Below are positions 3,646 through 26,744 of a stretch of 26,847 bases of DNA, piece by piece. Where the stretch lies: IMG/VR virus record IMGVR_UViG_3300042328_000892, positions 1 to 26,847 of that record, one strand, 5' to 3'. The notes beneath the pieces are model-generated. The model made no database searches. It was given only the letters and a program-made list of their open reading frames with translations, and was not told the origin of the DNA. The translations under genes and the position numbers were made by a program. Within the stretch, counting starts at the first letter, position 1. Each line of letters begins with the position of its first letter. The stretch is from a virus.

Positions 3646-4644
3646 ATGCTGAATATCATCTCTGATTTCATTAAAAGTATCTTACCCGCAAAGCGCAAAA
3701 TAACTCCCAGTGGTTGGCAATCTTTTAACGCACCCTGCTGCCCACATAATGGTGAAAGTGCAGATACCCGTGGTCGTGGTGGACTAACAGCCAATCCAGA
3801 TGGTAGCGTGTCTTTCCATTGTTTCAACTGCAATTTCAAAGCCAGCTATCAACCTGGACGTCATCTAACATTCAAATTCCGTAAACTACTAAAATGGTTA
3901 GGTGCAGACGACACTGACATCAAACGCTTAGTTATCGAAGCCATCCGCGTCCGTGAATTAGTCGCACCAGAAGAGGTAAAGGCAGAAGCCGAAGAAGAAC
4001 GTATCGAATTCAAAGTCCGTGACCTACCAGATGATGCAGAGAATTTGGTCACACTAGATTATGTCCACCCAGCATTGGAATATTGCGTGGCACGCAAAAT
4101 TGACCTAGACAAATATCAGTTTTACGCAACTCGTCAAGCGCAATATAATCTACACAAGAGAATCATCATACCGTTCGTTTGGCAAGGTCGTACTATTGGT
4201 TATACTGCCAGAGCTATCGAAGAAAACGTCAAACCAAAATATCACAGCAACTACGAACCAAACTTTGTGTTTAATATCAACAATCAACTAGCAGACAGCA
4301 AGTTCGTCATAGTCTGTGAAGGACCATTTGATGCTATGAGCGTAGATGGTGTAGCGGTATTAAATAATGAATGTAATGAAACACAAGCAGACATTATAGA
4401 ATCATTGGGCAGAGAAGTCATAGTGGTAGCAGATCGAGACAAGGCCGGCGCTAAGATGATCAATAATGCTATTGAATACGGATGGACAGTTAGCTTTCCT
4501 GTGTGGCTAGAAACTTGTAAAGACGTAAATGAAGCTGTGGTTAAATATGGTCGGCTGTTTGTGATGAAAACTATATTAGATGCTAAACAGACGAGTAAAC
4601 TCAAGATTGAACTTATGCGGAAAAAATTATATGCTAATACCTAA
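3646..4644 (+). CDS. DNA primase (zinc ribbon plus TOPRIM, T4 gp61-like role)
   Basis: A 332-residue primase that makes RNA primers for lagging-strand synthesis. N-terminal zinc-ribbon ligands are visible as CCPH (31-34) and C59-F-N-C62. The TOPRIM core shows VIVCEGPFDAMS (catalytic Glu225, Asp229) and VADRDKAG (Asp263, Asp265). The length matches phage T4-type primases, which lack a fused helicase. The partner helicase gene lies 1.5 kb downstream, separated by an AT-rich cassette that appears inserted. The ATG at 3646 coincides with the predicted transcript start, so the mRNA would be leaderless. If it is not, the start would have to lie further into the protein, before the zinc ribbon; I see no better candidate. 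Confidence 0.9.
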   Translation: MLNIISDFIKSILPAKRKITPSGWQSFNAPCCPHNGESADTRGRGGLTANPDGSVSFHCFNCNFKASYQPGRHLTFKFRKLLKWLGADDTDIKRLVIEAIRVRELVAPEEVKAEAEEERIEFKVRDLPDDAENLVTLDYVHPALEYCVARKIDLDKYQFYATRQAQYNLHKRIIIPFVWQGRTIGYTARAIEENVKPKYHSNYEPNFVFNINNQLADSKFVIVCEGPFDAMSVDGVAVLNNECNETQADIIESLGREVIVVADRDKAGAKMINNAIEYGWTVSFPVWLETCKDVNEAVVKYGRLFVMKTILDAKQTSKLKIELMRKKLYANT

Positions 4645-5520: not shown

Positions 5521-6151
5521 TGCTCCGATACATATGAAAGATTTAGCGGGACAAACTGTAGATAAGTTTGGGTATGATAATATTAGTAAAGTTAGATATA
5601 AATTTAATAATCTTGGATATAGATCAGATATAGAATTTGTGCCAACTAATGATGCAATCATATTGTTAGGAAATACTTTAACATTTGGGCTAGGATTGCC
5701 AATTGAAAAAACATTTGCTGGTATAATCGATAATACAGTTAGCAATTCAGTTTATAACTTTGCTTGGGGATGTTATGGTCATACAAATTATGAACAATTA
5801 CAACTACTTAAGAGCATACTTAAAGTAACTTGTCCAAAATTTATCATATTACAAATTAATAATCTGAACAGAATAAGAAATCCTGATAATTCTGTAAGTT
5901 TCAATAATCCTATAGATCAAATTGAAAAAGAATATAAAAAATTCCGATCAGAACTCAATATAGTATTAAACAATGTGCCACATCATTTATTATATTGGGA
6001 TGAAGAAACTTATCAGTTTGACTTCAGTGATTGTTTAATTTATAATAAGTATCATATCGACAATAACGTTATTAAGTCCCCATCGGAAATGTCTCTTTTT
6101 GGTGTTAAAACTCACAAACTAATAGCAACTAAACTACTACAAAACATATGA
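5507..6151 (+). CDS. SGNH/GDSL-hydrolase-like protein with altered nucleophile block
   Basis: A 214-residue protein with the layout of SGNH-fold hydrolases. NNLGYRSDIEF (35-44) precedes a strand and LLGNTLTFGLGLP (53-65), equivalent to block I GDSxTxG; NFAWGCYGHTNYEQL (84-98) fits block II; LQIN (115-118) fits block III. The catalytic Ser of GDS is Thr57 and the Asp is Asn56, and I do not find a clear DxxH near the C terminus, so hydrolase activity is doubtful. The gene is AT-rich and overlaps the ACP-like gene upstream and the helicase start downstream (ATGA). Related proteins act on acyl groups of glycans or lipids; here the job is unknown. Confidence 0.65.
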   Translation: MIFPDAPIHMKDLAGQTVDKFGYDNISKVRYKFNNLGYRSDIEFVPTNDAIILLGNTLTFGLGLPIEKTFAGIIDNTVSNSVYNFAWGCYGHTNYEQLQLLKSILKVTCPKFIILQINNLNRIRNPDNSVSFNNPIDQIEKEYKKFRSELNIVLNNVPHHLLYWDEETYQFDFSDCLIYNKYHIDNNVIKSPSEMSLFGVKTHKLIATKLLQNI

Positions 6152-7539
6152 CAAAAGAATATAGCCCAGAACTACAGAAACTATTTTTAGAAATGATGCT
6201 ACAGGATGCACAGAGTTATGTGCGTGTCCAAAATATCTATAATGCAGAAAACTTTGATCGTAGTCTACGTGAAGTAGCTAAGTTTATCAAAACCCATACT
6301 GATGATCATAAAGCCATGCCCACACACGAACAGGTCAAAGCAGTCACAGGGGTTGATCTTAAACATGTGCCGGACCTAACAGAAGATCACTACAGTTGGT
6401 TTATGGCAGAATTTGAGGGCTTTACTAGACGTAATGAACTTGAACGTGCAATCCTTAAATCAGCAGACTTGTTGGAAAAAGGTGATTATGATCCTGTAGA
6501 AAAATTAATCAAAGATGCGGTACAGATCAGTTTGACTAAAGATATGGGCACAGACTATTTCTTAGATCCACGTGCTAGGCTATTAGCAATTAAAAGCAAT
6601 AATGGACAGGTAAGTACTGGTTGGCCAACTCTTGATAAAAGATTATTTGGTGGTATGAACCGCGGAGAACTTAATATCTTTGCTGGCGGATCTGGCAGTG
6701 GCAAATCATTATTCATGCAGAATATCGCTATCAATTGGTGTACACAAGGGCTTAACGGTGTGTTCTTAACATTAGAACTTAGTGAAGGCTTGTGTGCTAT
6801 GCGTATGGACAGTATGGTAGCCAACTGTAGCACTAAAGAAGTGTTCAAAGATCTCGACACAGTCGAAATGAAAGTTAAGATGGTAGGTAAGAAGTCAGGT
6901 GCACTGCGTATCAAATATATGCCAGCTCAATCAAACGTAAATCAAATTAGATCATACTTAAAAGAACTACAAGTACAAACAGGCTTACGAGTAGACTTTA
7001 TCATGGTAGACTATTTAGATTTAGTCATGCCAGTGAGTGCTAAAGTCAGTCCAAATGATTTGTTTGTCAAAGACAAATATGTATCAGAAGAATTGCGTAA
7101 TCTAGCACGTGAACTTAACATTTTAATGATCACAGCGTCACAGTTGAATCGTGGTGCAGTAGAAGAGATTGAGTTTGATCATAGTCACATCGCAGGTGGA
7201 TTGAGTAAGATTAATACAGCAGATAACGTGTTTGGTATCTTTACCAGCCGTGCTATGCGTGAGCGTGGTCGTTATCAACTACAACTTATGAAGACACGTA
7301 GCAGTAGTGGTGTAGGTATGAAAGTGGACTTAGAGTTTGATCTAGAAACACTAAGAATTACTGATCCAGGTGAAGAAGCACAAGAAAGTGGCCTACGTGG
7401 AGTCGGAGCCACTAATATCATGAGTCAGATCAAAACAAATTCAACAGTATCACCCGGCGAAGAACCTAAGATACAAGCGGGTGTAGACAGTAGTAAACTT
7501 AAAAGTATGTTAGCTGGCCTTAAAAACACTTCAGAATGA
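6148..7539 (+). CDS. Replicative DNA helicase, DnaB/T4 gp41-type
   Basis: A 463-residue RecA-fold helicase that unwinds the fork and works with the primase. The Walker A motif FAGGSGSGKSLFMQ is at 178-190, Walker B VDFIMVDYLDLV at 282-293, and the sensor-like SQLNRGAVE follows about 50 residues later. The N-terminal ~130 residues form the helical domain typical of DnaB/gp41. The ATG overlaps the stop of the SGNH-like gene (ATGA). Base composition returns here to that of the phage core, unlike the AT-rich cassette just upstream. In T4 the primase and helicase form the primosome; here the two genes flank the inserted cassette. Confidence 0.93.
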   Translation: MTKEYSPELQKLFLEMMLQDAQSYVRVQNIYNAENFDRSLREVAKFIKTHTDDHKAMPTHEQVKAVTGVDLKHVPDLTEDHYSWFMAEFEGFTRRNELERAILKSADLLEKGDYDPVEKLIKDAVQISLTKDMGTDYFLDPRARLLAIKSNNGQVSTGWPTLDKRLFGGMNRGELNIFAGGSGSGKSLFMQNIAINWCTQGLNGVFLTLELSEGLCAMRMDSMVANCSTKEVFKDLDTVEMKVKMVGKKSGALRIKYMPAQSNVNQIRSYLKELQVQTGLRVDFIMVDYLDLVMPVSAKVSPNDLFVKDKYVSEELRNLARELNILMITASQLNRGAVEEIEFDHSHIAGGLSKINTADNVFGIFTSRAMRERGRYQLQLMKTRSSSGVGMKVDLEFDLETLRITDPGEEAQESGLRGVGATNIMSQIKTNSTVSPGEEPKIQAGVDSSKLKSMLAGLKNTSE

Positions 7540-7679
7540 TTTATACATTTGGCGACGGATTTACCGCCGGACTGTTATGTGATTTGTTAAATACTTTCTT
7601 TAATCAATTCGTAAAATTCTGGCAGGTAATCTTTGATCGAAATATTTTTCAATTGATCTTGATGTTGTATTTCTGTTAA
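7536..7679 (+). pseudogene. Remnant 5' end of an SGNH-like gene, coupled to helicase stop
   Basis: An ATG overlaps the helicase stop (ATGA at 7536-7539) and opens MIYTFGDGFTAG, which looks like the first strand and GDS block of an SGNH-fold protein. After about 12-14 residues the reading runs antisense into the 3' end of the reverse radical SAM gene and stops at 7677-7679 (47 residues in all). The most economical reading is a gene whose body was removed or displaced when the reverse-strand gene arrived. A tiny functional leader peptide is possible but less likely. This stretch is too short to be a complete enzyme. Confidence 0.5.
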
Positions 7680-8612
7680 AAATCGAGAAAAATTTTCATC
7701 ATCGTCAATGCTATGTTGCCTGAATAACTCTTGGTTTAATCCCAATTTAATTTTTTCAGGCAACGCATTTACTGAAAAATGATTAGGATAAGTTACCAGA
7801 TTATGGTTATGTCTTAATTTTTGTTGATTAAACCATTCAATGGTTTCATTATAATAGAATATGTTCAGATTACTTATAGTATAACTAACAAATAAATCTA
7901 TATTAAGTGATTGAAAAAAATGAATATTTTCTAAAAGAATATCCCATTTAAGCGGAAATCTCATGTATTCAAATCTTTTTTCTATTCCGTCGATGCTCAG
8001 ACAAATATTTAAATTTTTAAACTGTTTTAAGATATTTTGTTGTTTTTGATTGAGTTGTACTGAGCCATTTGACACTAAAGAAATATAACAATCAGTATTA
8101 CCAATCGAAATCATATATTCTAATATATCAAAATTTTTCTTTTCAAATAACGGCTCCCCACCAACAAAAGATAACATGACTAGATCTTTATATGAGATTG
8201 AATCAAGTTGATCCTGACTGATAATTTCAAATGTTTTAACTTTTTTAAGTGTTGCCCAGGCACTGCTAAAACTAGGACTACAAGTAACACAGGTGCTGTT
8301 ACACAAATTTGATGTATATAATTTAAGTATTTGATGTGAGAAATCACCATCTCGACAATCTTTTTCAATAAATCGGATATCTCGATTAGTGTAGAAATCA
8401 AAAGAAGAATTTTTTAATTGTCTGTCACTGGTTTTACCTTGATCTTCTAAGGTCCAACATTTTTGACAGGCAACAGGACGTTGCCCGTTGAGCATTTCTG
8501 TTTGTAATTGTTTTATATTTGTATCTTTTGGTAATAAACAACAAGGAGTAATGAATCCAGATGGCCTATGTTCAGCACTAAAAAAAGGTAACACGCAAAA
8601 ATAATCATTCAT
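7587..8612 (-). CDS. Radical SAM protein with N-terminal twitch-like cysteine cluster
   Basis: A 341-residue radical SAM enzyme. The CX3CX2C motif binding the S-adenosylmethionine [4Fe-4S] cluster is C104-NST-C108-VT-C111, and the GGEP motif is at 151-154. An extra cysteine set lies N-terminally: C6, C24-C25, C49-QK-C52, followed by WTLEDQGKTSDRQ. This is the arrangement of twitch-domain radical SAM proteins, in which these residues bind an auxiliary Fe-S cluster. Substrate unknown. The gene is on the opposite strand to its neighbours, AT-rich, and flanked on both sides by TAAATACT motifs, all signs of separate acquisition. The phage also carries Fe-S assembly genes (iscU, iscA), which would serve such an enzyme. 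Confidence 0.88.
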   Translation of the reverse strand: MNDYFCVLPFFSAEHRPSGFITPCCLLPKDTNIKQLQTEMLNGQRPVACQKCWTLEDQGKTSDRQLKNSSFDFYTNRDIRFIEKDCRDGDFSHQILKLYTSNLCNSTCVTCSPSFSSAWATLKKVKTFEIISQDQLDSISYKDLVMLSFVGGEPLFEKKNFDILEYMISIGNTDCYISLVSNGSVQLNQKQQNILKQFKNLNICLSIDGIEKRFEYMRFPLKWDILLENIHFFQSLNIDLFVSYTISNLNIFYYNETIEWFNQQKLRHNHNLVTYPNHFSVNALPEKIKLGLNQELFRQHSIDDDENFSRFLTEIQHQDQLKNISIKDYLPEFYELIKESI

Positions 8613-9421: not shown

Positions 9422-11341
9422 ATGAAACTATATCTATATGAAGGCTTAAACACTCAAGACCGTGCCAGTGTCTTGCTTTGGGAATCTGCAGGTCGCAAAC
9501 TTGTAGAAGCACAGTTAACCGCTGATCAAATCACGCAACTATTCCAACAGATTCAAACAGCCAAAGGTAATCGTACCTTAGTTGGTAAAGGTGTTGATGC
9601 TGGTGGTGCGGCTGCAAAAGCATGGAACGATTTAAAAAGTAAATTATATAACAGTGGTCCTATGGAAGGATTTGCAGCCGCATATGATCAAGCCGCTGAG
9701 AAACTAAAACAGGCAACTGGTGGTGATCAAGGTGCCATGCAGTATGTACAAAAATATCGTGACTTTGCTAAGAAACATCCTATCCTACAAGGATTTTTAT
9801 ACAGTGCTCTTATTGCCGCGGCTGGTATCAGTTCAGCAGGTCTTGGTGGTGCGGCTGCATTGGCACTGTTAAAAACCACAGACAAAGCTCTACAAGGTGA
9901 AGATATCCGTTCAGCACTATACTCTGGTGCTAAAACAGGTGCGTTAGCCTACGGTGCTAGTAAACTTGGTGATCTTATCAGAGGTGGCGATCAAGCACAA
10001 CAAGTTACTAGTAAATTACCAGCTAATGCCAATTGGATGGATTATGAAGCTGCATTAGAGCAGGCAAATCCAGCACTTCTCGATCGTGTAAAGGATATAA
10101 TAAATGACCCAGGAGTAACAGATGAGTTCAAAACTCAATACCTGAAGAATCTTTATACTTTTGGTAAAGATATCACTGACCCAGCTAGAATTACAAATCT
10201 GGTTCAAGCGCAGTATAAATTAGCAGACGCCGCTTTACAAGCTGCAGACCAAGCCACATTAGCTGCCGCAGGTAATCCTAATTTTGAAAGCCGAGACCTT
10301 AGCCGTAAACAAGTCCTAGCATTGTTTGAACGTGTTGCCCATCTAAACAGTCGCATGTTAAATGAAGGACGATTAGAAGAAGGCATCTGGGACGATATTA
10401 AATCAGGTGCAGGCAAAGGCCTACAAGGTATTAAAAGTCTAGCTGGTAAAACCGCAGGTGCAGTAGCACAAGGTGCCGCTAAAGTCGGACGTAGCATGAC
10501 TGCTAAGGTATCAAGTGATGCATTGACCAAAGCATGGGAAAAAGCTGGTAAGCCAACAGACAGTGTAGAAATTGAAAAACTATTACAAGCCCAAGGTGTT
10601 AATCCTGAAGTAGTTAAAACAGTATTCCAAGCTAACAGTATTCCACTAAGTGTAGCCGCAGGTGCTAGCACAGGTTCAGCAGGTGTAGATGCCAACGAGC
10701 CAATGCCAGATGTTATGTCGACTAACAGAGCTGAAACTCCAGCACCTATAGAACCTGCAACAGCTAGTGCTGGTCCAGGTGCACAAGTAGCGCAACAACA
10801 AGCACAACAAGCACCTCAGCAGACTACGCAACAACCCGCTAGTGCAGAACCCGCAACAAGCCCAGCTGATCAAGGTGCAGTGGCACAAGGTGTACAACAA
10901 GCTCAAAGTCAACAACAGCAACCAAGTGCAACTGCATCTAAGTTACCTGATGTTACTAGACTAACTCCAGAACAGAAAAAACAATTACTAGCACAGATTG
11001 ATAAACAATTAGCAAGCATGCCGGCTGCAACAGCACAACAACCAACGCCCCCAGCTCCACAACCGTCTGCGGCACCTGCACCAACAGCACCAACACAATC
11101 AGCAACAGCGAATAAGATGCCTGCATCAATAACTCCTGTGGCTACAACTCAACAGGCGATAGCCGCTAAGATGCCAGTAGCGACCAAAACTGCCAAACCC
11201 AAAGTACCATATTCCGCGGTCGCGCAGAAAGCCACACCAGCCAAGGTATCTGCACCACGCAATCCGGGTGCGCCGACTGATACAGAATACAACAAATTCC
11301 AAGACCTATTAAAACAGGCATTAGATAAACAAGGTGCATAA
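9422..11341 (+). CDS. Large Ala/Gln/Pro-rich protein with a hydrophobic glycine-rich segment
   Basis: A 639-residue protein. Residues 121-150 (ILQGFLYSALIAAAGISSAG onward) form a Gly/Ala-rich hydrophobic segment long enough to span a membrane once or as a hairpin. A second hydrophobic stretch may lie near 165-185. Residues ~425-620 are low-complexity Ala, Gln, Pro and Thr with repeated KMP and QQ units; a KLPDVTRL block near residue 507 is shared with the upstream gene's product. It starts two bases after the upstream stop, and its stop shares one base with the next ATG. Such proteins could be internal virion or ejection proteins that cross the host membrane with the DNA (inference). A long antisense reading frame here reflects codon bias, not a gene. 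Confidence 0.75.
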   Translation: MKLYLYEGLNTQDRASVLLWESAGRKLVEAQLTADQITQLFQQIQTAKGNRTLVGKGVDAGGAAAKAWNDLKSKLYNSGPMEGFAAAYDQAAEKLKQATGGDQGAMQYVQKYRDFAKKHPILQGFLYSALIAAAGISSAGLGGAAALALLKTTDKALQGEDIRSALYSGAKTGALAYGASKLGDLIRGGDQAQQVTSKLPANANWMDYEAALEQANPALLDRVKDIINDPGVTDEFKTQYLKNLYTFGKDITDPARITNLVQAQYKLADAALQAADQATLAAAGNPNFESRDLSRKQVLALFERVAHLNSRMLNEGRLEEGIWDDIKSGAGKGLQGIKSLAGKTAGAVAQGAAKVGRSMTAKVSSDALTKAWEKAGKPTDSVEIEKLLQAQGVNPEVVKTVFQANSIPLSVAAGASTGSAGVDANEPMPDVMSTNRAETPAPIEPATASAGPGAQVAQQQAQQAPQQTTQQPASAEPATSPADQGAVAQGVQQAQSQQQQPSATASKLPDVTRLTPEQKKQLLAQIDKQLASMPAATAQQPTPPAPQPSAAPAPTAPTQSATANKMPASITPVATTQQAIAAKMPVATKTAKPKVPYSAVAQKATPAKVSAPRNPGAPTDTEYNKFQDLLKQALDKQGA

Positions 11342-12573
11342 TGAAATTATTTGAGATAAAACGCCAGGCCGCTGATTTCTTGCTTACAGAAAGCAAGAAC
11401 GTGCATCTCGAGCACCTCGAGGACCTAATATTTAACAAGGGCTATGCAGGCGCGGAAGAAGCCCTAGACTATCTCGAAAGTCTGCGTCACATGCTGGCAG
11501 AAGGCACAGGAACTACGACTCAACTCACAGTCAAATGGGACGGATCGCCAGCGATCATCTGTGGCATTGACCCAGAAGACAGCAAGTTCTTTGTGGGTAC
11601 CAAAGCAGTGTTCAGCAAGGGTGAACCTAAACGTGCTAAATCTGTTAAACAGATACAACAATGGTATGGTGATCAACCTGAACTAGCTGAAATCTTGATA
11701 TCGGCATTGAAATATCTCAGCAAGTTAAATATCGGTGGTGTGGTACAAGGTGACTTGTTATTCACCCCAGGCAAGGTTACCAAGGTAGAAGTCAATGATG
11801 AACTCTGTTATGTGTTCACTCCCAATACCATCACCTATGCTGTGCCAGTTGATAGCCATCTAGGTCAACGCATAGCTGAAGCTAAACTAGGTATCATATT
11901 CCATACCACCTATACTGGTGGTGACACTATTGACGAGATGACTGCACAGTTTGGTGTAAACGTTGGTAGTCTCACCCAGACCAGAGACGTATGGTTTGAT
12001 GATGCTACATACAAAGACTACACAGGTGTAGCCAGCTTGACCCCAACAGAAAATCTCAAGATAGAAAAATATCTAGCCGCAACAGCCAAGACCATGCAGA
12101 AGATTGGCGGCCAACGCTTTGATATCGTATTACAAGATCGTGAATTTAATCGCATGATCAAGCCCTTCATCAACAAGATGATCCGTGCAGGCATCCAGGC
12201 TATAGATCCTACAGCCTTTCTCAAGGATTTTATAGCACACTATAATCAAGAAATGATGAAAGGTGTGGAAGACCCCACCAGTCGCGTGGCACAGAATCGC
12301 GTGGCCAAGATCAAGGCCAAGGAACAGTGGATCGCTGACAACAGCAATAATCTAGTGGGAATCCTAGCAGTATACAAGAGAATGATCGAATTAAAACACA
12401 TGCTATTAGCTAAACTACAGAAGGTAGAAGGTATCGGCACGTTCCAAAAGACCAACGACGGCTACAAAGTAACAGCACCAGAAGGATTTGTTGCTATAGG
12501 ACACGATGGTGGCGCTGTTAAACTGGTGGATCGTTTGACCTTCAGTAGGATGAATTTTTTGAAGTCGGCATAA
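11341..12573 (+). CDS. DUF6267-like protein with nucleotidyltransferase (ligase-type) motifs
   Basis: A 410-residue protein resembling a family widespread in T4-like cyanophages (recalled as DUF6267). It opens with a helical region containing NVHLEHLEDLIFNKG. Residues 62-72 (TVKWDGSPAI) match motif I KxDG of covalent nucleotidyltransferases such as DNA/RNA ligases, with Lys65 as the would-be adenylated residue. VVQGDLLFTPG (134-144) fits motif III. Near the C terminus EGFVA (381-385) and GAVKLVDR (391-398) fit motifs IV and V. A ~200-residue helical insert lies between III and IV, longer than usual. The motif order supports a ligase-like core, but activity is inferred. It shares one base with the upstream stop and ends just before a late promoter. 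Confidence 0.8.
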   Translation: MKLFEIKRQAADFLLTESKNVHLEHLEDLIFNKGYAGAEEALDYLESLRHMLAEGTGTTTQLTVKWDGSPAIICGIDPEDSKFFVGTKAVFSKGEPKRAKSVKQIQQWYGDQPELAEILISALKYLSKLNIGGVVQGDLLFTPGKVTKVEVNDELCYVFTPNTITYAVPVDSHLGQRIAEAKLGIIFHTTYTGGDTIDEMTAQFGVNVGSLTQTRDVWFDDATYKDYTGVASLTPTENLKIEKYLAATAKTMQKIGGQRFDIVLQDREFNRMIKPFINKMIRAGIQAIDPTAFLKDFIAHYNQEMMKGVEDPTSRVAQNRVAKIKAKEQWIADNSNNLVGILAVYKRMIELKHMLLAKLQKVEGIGTFQKTNDGYKVTAPEGFVAIGHDGGAVKLVDRLTFSRMNFLKSA

Positions 12574-25717: not shown

Positions 25718-25941
25718 AGATATTTTAATACAAACATGGTATAATCTTCGTCATGTTCAAAATCAAGATGGACTACGTCGACTCTATCGAAGCCTCCTGG
25801 GGCATCAGCTATGCTCCACACTTCTGTAGCCTTGCGTAACTGAAATTTAAGTTCTCGACCAATACTCATGGCGGTGTAGTCACGACTCAATCTGTGCCAT
25901 AACTTACCCCAGTCTTGCTCAGTATAACTAAGTGTTCTCAC
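25714..25941 (-). CDS. Small hypothetical protein, possible paralogue of the gene at 25116-25343
   Basis: A 75-residue protein; the ATG at 25941 overlaps the metallophosphoesterase stop (ATGA) and its own stop overlaps the lipoprotein ATG. It contains EVWSIADAPGGFDRVDVVHL and ends LDFEHDEDYTMFVLKYL, sharing the APGG turn and the phenylalanine-acidic-Phe-x-L ending with the small protein at 25116-25343. The N-terminal WGKLWHRLSRDY is helical. No known domain. Confidence 0.65.
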   Translation of the reverse strand: MRTLSYTEQDWGKLWHRLSRDYTAMSIGRELKFQLRKATEVWSIADAPGGFDRVDVVHLDFEHDEDYTMFVLKYL

Positions 25942-26744
25942 AGGTCAATATACTGTAGTTGAAAATTATCAGCACCGGGCTCATGACCACTATAGCCGCG
26001 CGGGTTACATACCACACGTGTTTCACCGATCGTGTAGTCAAAAGGCTCATGCGTATGACCGTGTGTCCACAAACGAATCTGTGGACGATATGCGATAAAG
26101 TCATCTAGGTCGCTAGCAAACGCACCATTCATGATCTTGTCATGGGCATACTTAGGATGTATGCTTTTCTTACTAGGACAATGATGCCCTACTACGATAA
26201 ATTTGTAGTTAGGACGATCGTAGGTGATATGATTGACGTAGTCCATGCTTTTCTTATGTAATACAACAGTATCCTCTGGAGAGAGACGTGCTGGTTTACC
26301 CCACTCATTTAAGGTCCTAGCACTGTTTTTAATGCTCTGGAAATCTGACATCATTGAACTCACGTGATACAAGGTTAGACTATCTTCTTCATTCATGTTA
26401 GTCCACAAGGTTATACCAATAAAAGTATAACCGAGAATGTCCACGGTTTCGTCATCTAAGATGTGTAGGTTATCATACACAAGTTCACGCTTTAAATGTT
26501 CAGTGGTATGTTGTATGTCATAGGCATAGTGTTCGTGATTACCTAAGACATAAATGACCCGAGGAAATCGTTCACAACATTCCTTAAAGAATTTCCTATA
26601 ACGAGCATCGTGATGATGTTCTCTATTTAAATGTTTAGCCACACAGATATCGCCAGATAGTACAAGTACATCTGCGTTTTCAGTGTTATGTAATTCTAAT
26701 GCACCAAACTCTAAGTGTAGGTCACTACCTAATGCTATTTTCAT
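25938..26744 (-). CDS. Calcineurin-like metallophosphoesterase
   Basis: A 268-residue two-metal phosphoesterase. Motifs: SDLHLE (Asp8, His10), LSGDI (Asp32), LGNHEHY (Asn69, His70), VVGHHCPS and WTHGHTHEPFDY (paired metal-binding His). These are the five blocks of the family in order. Substrate is unknown; phage members include phosphatases, nucleases and cyclic nucleotide phosphodiesterases. It overlaps the partial upstream gene by ATGA and its stop overlaps the next ATG the same way. With the deoxynucleotidase at the end of the operon, it suggests a phosphate- or nucleotide-handling operon. Confidence 0.9.
   Translation of the reverse strand: MKIALGSDLHLEFGALELHNTENADVLVLSGDICVAKHLNREHHHDARYRKFFKECCERFPRVIYVLGNHEHYAYDIQHTTEHLKRELVYDNLHILDDETVDILGYTFIGITLWTNMNEEDSLTLYHVSSMMSDFQSIKNSARTLNEWGKPARLSPEDTVVLHKKSMDYVNHITYDRPNYKFIVVGHHCPSKKSIHPKYAHDKIMNGAFASDLDDFIAYRPQIRLWTHGHTHEPFDYTIGETRVVCNPRGYSGHEPGADNFQLQYIDL

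Follow-up and report, generated by a model that had tools for sequence, protein, structure and literature searches.

Positions 11341 to 12573 (plus strand) of the IMG/VR virus record IMGVR_UViG_3300042328_000892 hold an open reading frame that begins with ATG and encodes a protein of 410 amino acids (aa). The window referred to here is the whole stretch of DNA analysed, positions 1 to 26,847 of that record (26,847 nucleotides). The protein belongs to the family DUF6267 (PF19782; Pfam E=7.3e-107 over residues 20-407, 358.4 bits against a gathering cut-off of 27) and also matches phrog_455, labelled 'unknown function'. DUF6267 proteins are annotated as 'hypothetical' in nearly all records examined, and a literature search found no mention of the family. 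Judging from conserved motifs and predicted structures, DUF6267 very probably falls within the covalent nucleotidyltransferase class, and is best read as a new OB-less branch of the RNA-ligase-type enzymes of that class and not as an enzyme of a new kind. The features of the gene are as follows, numbered by residues of the window protein.

11341 to 12573, plus strand: DUF6267 protein, 410 aa, predicted RNA-ligase-like covalent nucleotidyltransferase (Pfam, PHROG, predicted structure)
11404 to 11424, plus strand: HLEHLED, residues 22-28, with H22, H25 and E27 invariant (alignment)
11533 to 11544, plus strand: motif I, KWDG, residues 65-68, with the predicted nucleotide-accepting Lys65 between two strands (alignment, model)
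11587 to 11619, plus strand: FFVGTKAVFSK, residues 83-93, counterpart of the SRTG/KRTG element, with F84, K88 and F91 invariant (profile comparison, alignment)
11746 to 11760, plus strand: motif III counterpart, QGDLL, residues 136-140, on the strand 134-141, with D138 invariant (model, profile, alignment)
11902 to 11913, plus strand: HTTY, residues 188-191, at the position of motif IIIa (FD in canonical ligases), with H188, T189 and Y191 invariant
12043 to 12417, plus strand: helical insert, approximately residues 235-359, between motifs IIIa and IV, with N278 and K352 invariant (model, alignment)
12481 to 12495, plus strand: motif IV, EGFVA, residues 381-385, with E381 and G382 invariant and a strand at 382-386 (model, alignment)
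12517 to 12534, plus strand: motif V, VKLVDR, residues 393-398, with Lys394 invariant and Arg398 near-invariant (alignment)

Motifs I, III, IV and V lie exactly where an initial annotation, made from the sequence alone, had placed them. That annotation overestimated the insert, which it put at about 200 residues; the mostly helical segment measures approximately 125 aa in the window model (residues ~235-359) and approximately 75 aa (residues ~177-250) in a shorter form of the family. Two forms of DUF6267 occur, a long one of about 400 aa that resembles the window protein and a short one of about 300 aa found in many cyanophages; all of the motifs are common to both, and they differ in length chiefly through the helical segment ahead of motif IV and the loops around motif III. 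The HLEHLED element occupies the same place as the N-terminal element of the Rnl2 and Rnl5 RNA ligases, and its last residue lies 37 positions ahead of K65 in the window protein and 22 in the short form. The protein ends 12 residues past motif V, where the model has only a short helix, and neither sequence nor model reveals a C-terminal substrate domain, an OB domain or motif VI after that point.

Conservation across the family was assessed with relatives gathered from viral contigs, phage records and genome contigs and clustered at 75% identity. The alignment contains 117 non-redundant relatives and the window protein, with a median pairwise identity of ~35% and a minimum of ~25%; one row (L326:8122), a neighboring open reading frame with a HIGH domain, was excluded from the conservation count and kept among the 107 rows behind the window model. 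Residues H22, H25, E27, K65, D67, G68, P70, Q136, D138, Y166, H188, T189, Y191 and N278 are present in every row, and K352, E381, G382 and K394 in every row without a gap at the position concerned. Lys65, Glu381 and Lys394, whose conservation across the family had been proposed as a check, are therefore invariant where not gapped. The seven core residues (K65, D67, G68, D138, E381, G382 and K394) are all among the 26 near-invariant positions of the 410 (hypergeometric P=1.8e-9). Six diverged members from jumbo and other large phage records likewise retain K, D, E and K, and the more distant members in such records have KWDG, an aspartate at motif III, EGxV and KLV.

Predicted structures place these residues in a ligase fold. 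AlphaFold2 models were obtained for the window protein (predicted local distance difference test, pLDDT, 90.2; predicted template modeling score, pTM, 0.83) and for a short-form member, L178 (pLDDT 94.0, pTM 0.89), and the comparison with T4 RNA ligases and DNA ligases suggested by the initial annotation returned an RNA/DNA ligase fold with VIA-align. The short form aligned best with NgrRnl, the Rnl5-type ligase of Naegleria gruberi (Z 9.0; 177 residues, 3.8 A), then with T4 Rnl1 (8.3), REL1 (7.3), Rnl2 (7.1), Trl1 (7.1) and DNA ligases (up to 5.9 for the ATP-dependent type); all 50 PDB entries listed belong to the covalent nucleotidyltransferase superfamily, RNA ligases first. The window model likewise matched NgrRnl (Z 8.0) and other RNA ligases, together with Hsp70 entries that cover 71-86 residues of helices only. 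In a Foldseek search of PDB with the short form, the first nine rows were ligases or a capping enzyme, led by a Thermococcus DNA ligase (E 0.028). As computed from the reported alignment ranges rather than from residue-level superposition, model position 294 corresponds to 252 of T4 Rnl1, setting E269 on E227, and position 295 to 339 of NgrRnl, setting E269 and K281 within one residue of E312 and K326. We take E227 to be the motif IV glutamate of T4 Rnl1; K170, E312 and K326 of NgrRnl are named as mutated residues in PDB entry titles. As Z scores of 7-8 can arise without relationship, the weight here is placed on the Z of 9, the homogeneous list and the motif register together.

DUF6267 nevertheless departs from each known system that it resembles. 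Unlike NgrRnl, it has the helical insert between motifs IIIa and IV, an aspartate in motif III and no second motif V lysine, and the two have no detectable sequence similarity. T4 Rnl1 has a C-terminal domain that DUF6267 lacks, and no sequence match links them. With T4 Rnl2 and the RNA editing ligases (PF09414) it shares the spacing from L-E-[NH] to the motif I lysine, which is 26 residues in both T4 Rnl2 and short-form DUF6267, but these enzymes have KxHG in place of KxDG, a C-terminal domain and a different insert. ATP-dependent DNA ligases (T4 gp30, PF01068) have the superfamily fold in common, whereas their N-terminal DNA-binding domain, OB domain and motif VI are absent from DUF6267.

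A bridge to textbook enzymes is provided by a second phage family, P0002, which is unannotated and has no Pfam model. Its motifs (KVDG, SRTGPIF, CELF, VPFDVL, IEGLVL and LVKVT) form the standard covalent nucleotidyltransferase series. Comparison of the short-form DUF6267 alignment with P0002 in hhalign gave a probability of 90% (E=1.5e-6, 248 columns), pairing motif I, GTKS with GSRT, the QGDF and CELF regions, a helix lysine, EGYV with IEGLV, and FKLV with VKVT, whereas four controls (T4 Rnl2, DNA ligases, the HIGH family and ligase N-termini) scored 0.2-0.5%. P0002 differs from DUF6267 in its canonical SRTGPIF and CE, in some members FD, and in lacking the HxEHxED and HTxY signatures. The two occupy the same operon slot before a HIGH family gene. 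A P0002 domain is also fused N-terminally to DUF6267 in one jumbo-phage protein of ~650 aa (L453:1492-3441, minus strand; also L460:1-1953, plus strand), a 654-aa open reading frame in a 260-kb phage record, while relatives of P0002 that stand alone are encoded by other large phage contigs and by phages of Stenotrophomonas and Xanthomonas. P0002 genes sit between the HIGH family gene and a gene resembling DNA polymerase beta (pol-beta), with the pattern GS...GDID. These pol-beta-like genes, listed below, start GGN[VA], lie directly or one gene before P0002 and have no Pfam match. They are possible candidates for an RNA-repair partner like RlaP, a pol-beta family described alongside the RNA ligases of jumbo phages (PMC7824862).

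L459, 1904 to 3001: pol-beta-like gene adjoining P0002
L462, 1835 to 2977: pol-beta-like gene adjoining P0002
L464, 1784 to 2953: pol-beta-like gene adjoining P0002
L466, 1987 to 2997: pol-beta-like gene adjoining P0002
L467, 2085 to 3005: pol-beta-like gene adjoining P0002

By its gene content, the 26.8-kb locus is mainly a replication and nucleotide-metabolism region, encoding primase, DnaB-like helicase, exonuclease, NrdA and NrdB. The initial annotation had described a virion region, a description borne out only by a few small virion-like genes. Neighbors of the DUF6267 gene include the following.

3646 to 4644, plus strand: DNA primase (Toprim)
6148 to 7539, plus strand: DnaB-like replicative helicase
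9422 to 11341, plus strand: gene immediately before DUF6267, 639 aa, of low complexity and without a family, sharing one base with the start of DUF6267

Two minus-strand genes stand amid this mostly plus-strand region, encoding a radical-SAM protein (7587-8612) and a calcineurin-like metallophosphoesterase (25938-26744). In many relatives, a helicase gene precedes DUF6267 by two to six genes. In several unrelated genes immediately preceding DUF6267 (e.g. L081:10953-12011, L088:3288-4028), a D...[IV]SxK pattern was observed that resembles PD-(D/E)XK nucleases. This lead was rejected: the enrichment is mild (12 of 53 preceding genes against 3.2 expected by shuffling, and 10 of 130 genes elsewhere), and the gene before DUF6267 in the window itself does not have the pattern.

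Many Kyanoviridae and marine contigs show the order gp41-type helicase, DUF6267 and HIGH-superfamily nucleotidyltransferase. The last two form a single protein in S-PM2, and phrog_455 contains both. The best PDB relatives of the HIGH family are archaeal nicotinamide mononucleotide (NMN) adenylyltransferases (1.6e-6), and the family was found in all nine Kyanoviridae genomes searched. For the 'Cytidyltransferase' fused to or beside cyanophage DUF6267 (L082:7995-9770; L083:4893-6050), the nearest PDB relative is an archaeal NMN adenylyltransferase, suggesting from sequence a role related to nicotinamide adenine dinucleotide (NAD+). Both DUF6267 and the HIGH gene also occur on a 188-kb contig (L324) of the Nonlabens xiamenensis isolate assembly, which is probably phage DNA. 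In metaG-MbCM1 (JN371769.1, 145353-146249), the DUF6267 region is labelled 'NrdB ribonucleotide reductase A subunit', a name that appears to be wrong.

Several observations weigh against a ligase-type enzyme. Searches with phmmer and hmmsearch against PDB, and a Pfam scan of all short-form members, produced no sequence match to ligase families, including RNA ligase 2 (PF09414), the adenylation domain of ATP-dependent DNA ligases (PF01068) and NAD+-dependent DNA ligase, domain Ia included (PF01653). In hhalign the T4 Rnl2 (RnlB) family scored 0.3% and phage DNA ligases 0.4%, and use of a long-form-rich alignment lowered the P0002 match to 10% (E=0.003) in an unchanged register. The residue of motif III is aspartate and not the glutamate of canonical ligases, and the second position of the canonical motif V KxK is valine or isoleucine, leaving K394 as a single, invariant lysine. 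The nucleotidyltransferase or ligase idea of the initial annotation holds for the class, through conservation, fold and the P0002 bridge; motif V deviates from the standard. The part in DNA packaging that it suggested gained no support. No consistent 5'-kinase or 3'-phosphatase partner was found, P-loop kinases being present in ~4 of 115 neighbors. Finally, the Foldseek matches are weak, none better than the E of 0.028, and with the window model, a search dominated by the helical insert, CorA ranks first. These Foldseek results would fit a coincidental order of motifs on a fold unrelated to ligases, which is highly improbable given the Z of 9.0, the one homologous superfamily in all 50 listed rows, motifs in register and the P0002 bridge. 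Nor is it at all likely that the protein is a catalytically inactive nucleotidyltransferase fold serving as a structural or scaffold protein; the small virion-like genes nearby and the missing second lysine of motif V could be read that way, but the core catalytic residues are all invariant at a minimum identity of ~25%, which would not be required of a dead scaffold.

By tblastn, DUF6267 is present in 456 records named Synechococcus, Cyanophage or Prochlorococcus, against 459 with UvsX, as totals compared and not record by record. Homologues of g30 were not found in cyanomyoviruses, and unidentified distant homologues have been raised as a possibility (PMC2984593); most subgroup 2.1 jumbo phages are without a known DNA ligase, yet have a gene for a standalone ligase DNA-binding domain, AAX44695.1 (PMC7824862). 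This protein is PSSM2_317 of P-SSM2 (L475:11440-12063), and its relatives occur in 459 cyanophage-named records, the same count as UvsX. In S-CAM1, the PSSM2_317 relative directly follows ribonuclease H. Nine Kyanoviridae genomes have DUF6267 and no match to PF01068, PF01653 or PF09414, and in many the gene is just downstream of the gp41 helicase. Furthermore, PSSM2_317 relatives are confined to those DUF6267 genomes that have no full ligase; none of the eight DUF6267 genomes with a full ATP ligase carries one. Kyanoviridae DUF6267 could on this basis be the missing DNA ligase that closes the nicks between Okazaki fragments, possibly in a split enzyme of which it would be the catalytic half and PSSM2_317 the other. 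This is rather unlikely, given that the fold matches RNA ligases better than DNA ligases, no OB domain follows motif V, and DUF6267 is found together with an ATP DNA ligase (PF01068) in two close relatives of the window, G001 (74% identical protein) and G002 (81%), in G018 and G019, and in seven of 23 ligase-selected records. PSSM2_317 itself has no detectable profile similarity to the ligase DNA-binding domain and no match to PF04675, and its complementarity with full ligases is suggestive at the level of sequence but follows lineage. The most elaborate version, a split replicative ligase of marine T4-like phages with an OB-less, RNA-ligase-like DUF6267 catalytic subunit and a PSSM2_317 DNA-binding subunit, possibly fed by the adjacent NMN-adenylyltransferase-like domain recycling NMN if the cofactor is NAD+, is decidedly doubtful. 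A general role of DUF6267 as replacement ligase is ruled out as a rule by the coexisting ATP DNA ligases. It is also unlikely that DUF6267 adenylylates, or derivatizes with NAD, a protein or small molecule together with the HIGH domain, its fusion partner or neighbor in many marine phages. The S-PM2 fusion and the NMN adenylyltransferase relationship of the HIGH family speak for such a target, although NMN recycling by the HIGH protein would equally fit an NAD+-using ligase; against it, the DUF6267 carriers G001, G004, G009 and G010 and the window's 26.8 kb lack the HIGH gene, and the fold and pol-beta-like associations point to nucleic-acid repair.

On balance DUF6267 is probably a polynucleotide ligase; its catalysis, cofactor and polynucleotide-end substrate are inferred. 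Its main substrate may be RNA, with DNA the less likely candidate. RNA repair is slightly favored over DNA nick sealing because of the ranking of fold matches, the lack of an OB domain, the pol-beta-like association of P0002 and the presence of DNA ligase in the same genomes; its distribution in Kyanoviridae speaks for the opposite. As the window's close relatives carry an ordinary ATP DNA ligase, the protein would not simply be a replacement ligase. In the proposed mechanism, Lys65 would attack the alpha-phosphate of a nucleotide cofactor (most likely ATP, conceivably NAD+) to form lysyl-AMP, in a pocket that would also contain Asp138 of motif III, Glu381 of motif IV and Lys394 and Arg398 of motif V. 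The AMP would then be passed to a 5'-phosphate end, and attack by a 3'-OH would seal the strand. The helical insert, with Asn278 and Lys352, may stand in for the C-terminal or OB domain as the element that holds the substrate.

DUF6267 is near-universal in T4-like cyanophages, a dominant group of marine viruses, and its assignment to a ligase fold provides a concrete candidate for the ligase gap noted in reviews of 2010 and 2021. Alternatively, it may represent a widespread tRNA- or RNA-repair enzyme that helps phages to survive host anticodon nucleases. The family would also add a compact, OB-less branch to the ligase superfamily, one that could be of enzymological use.

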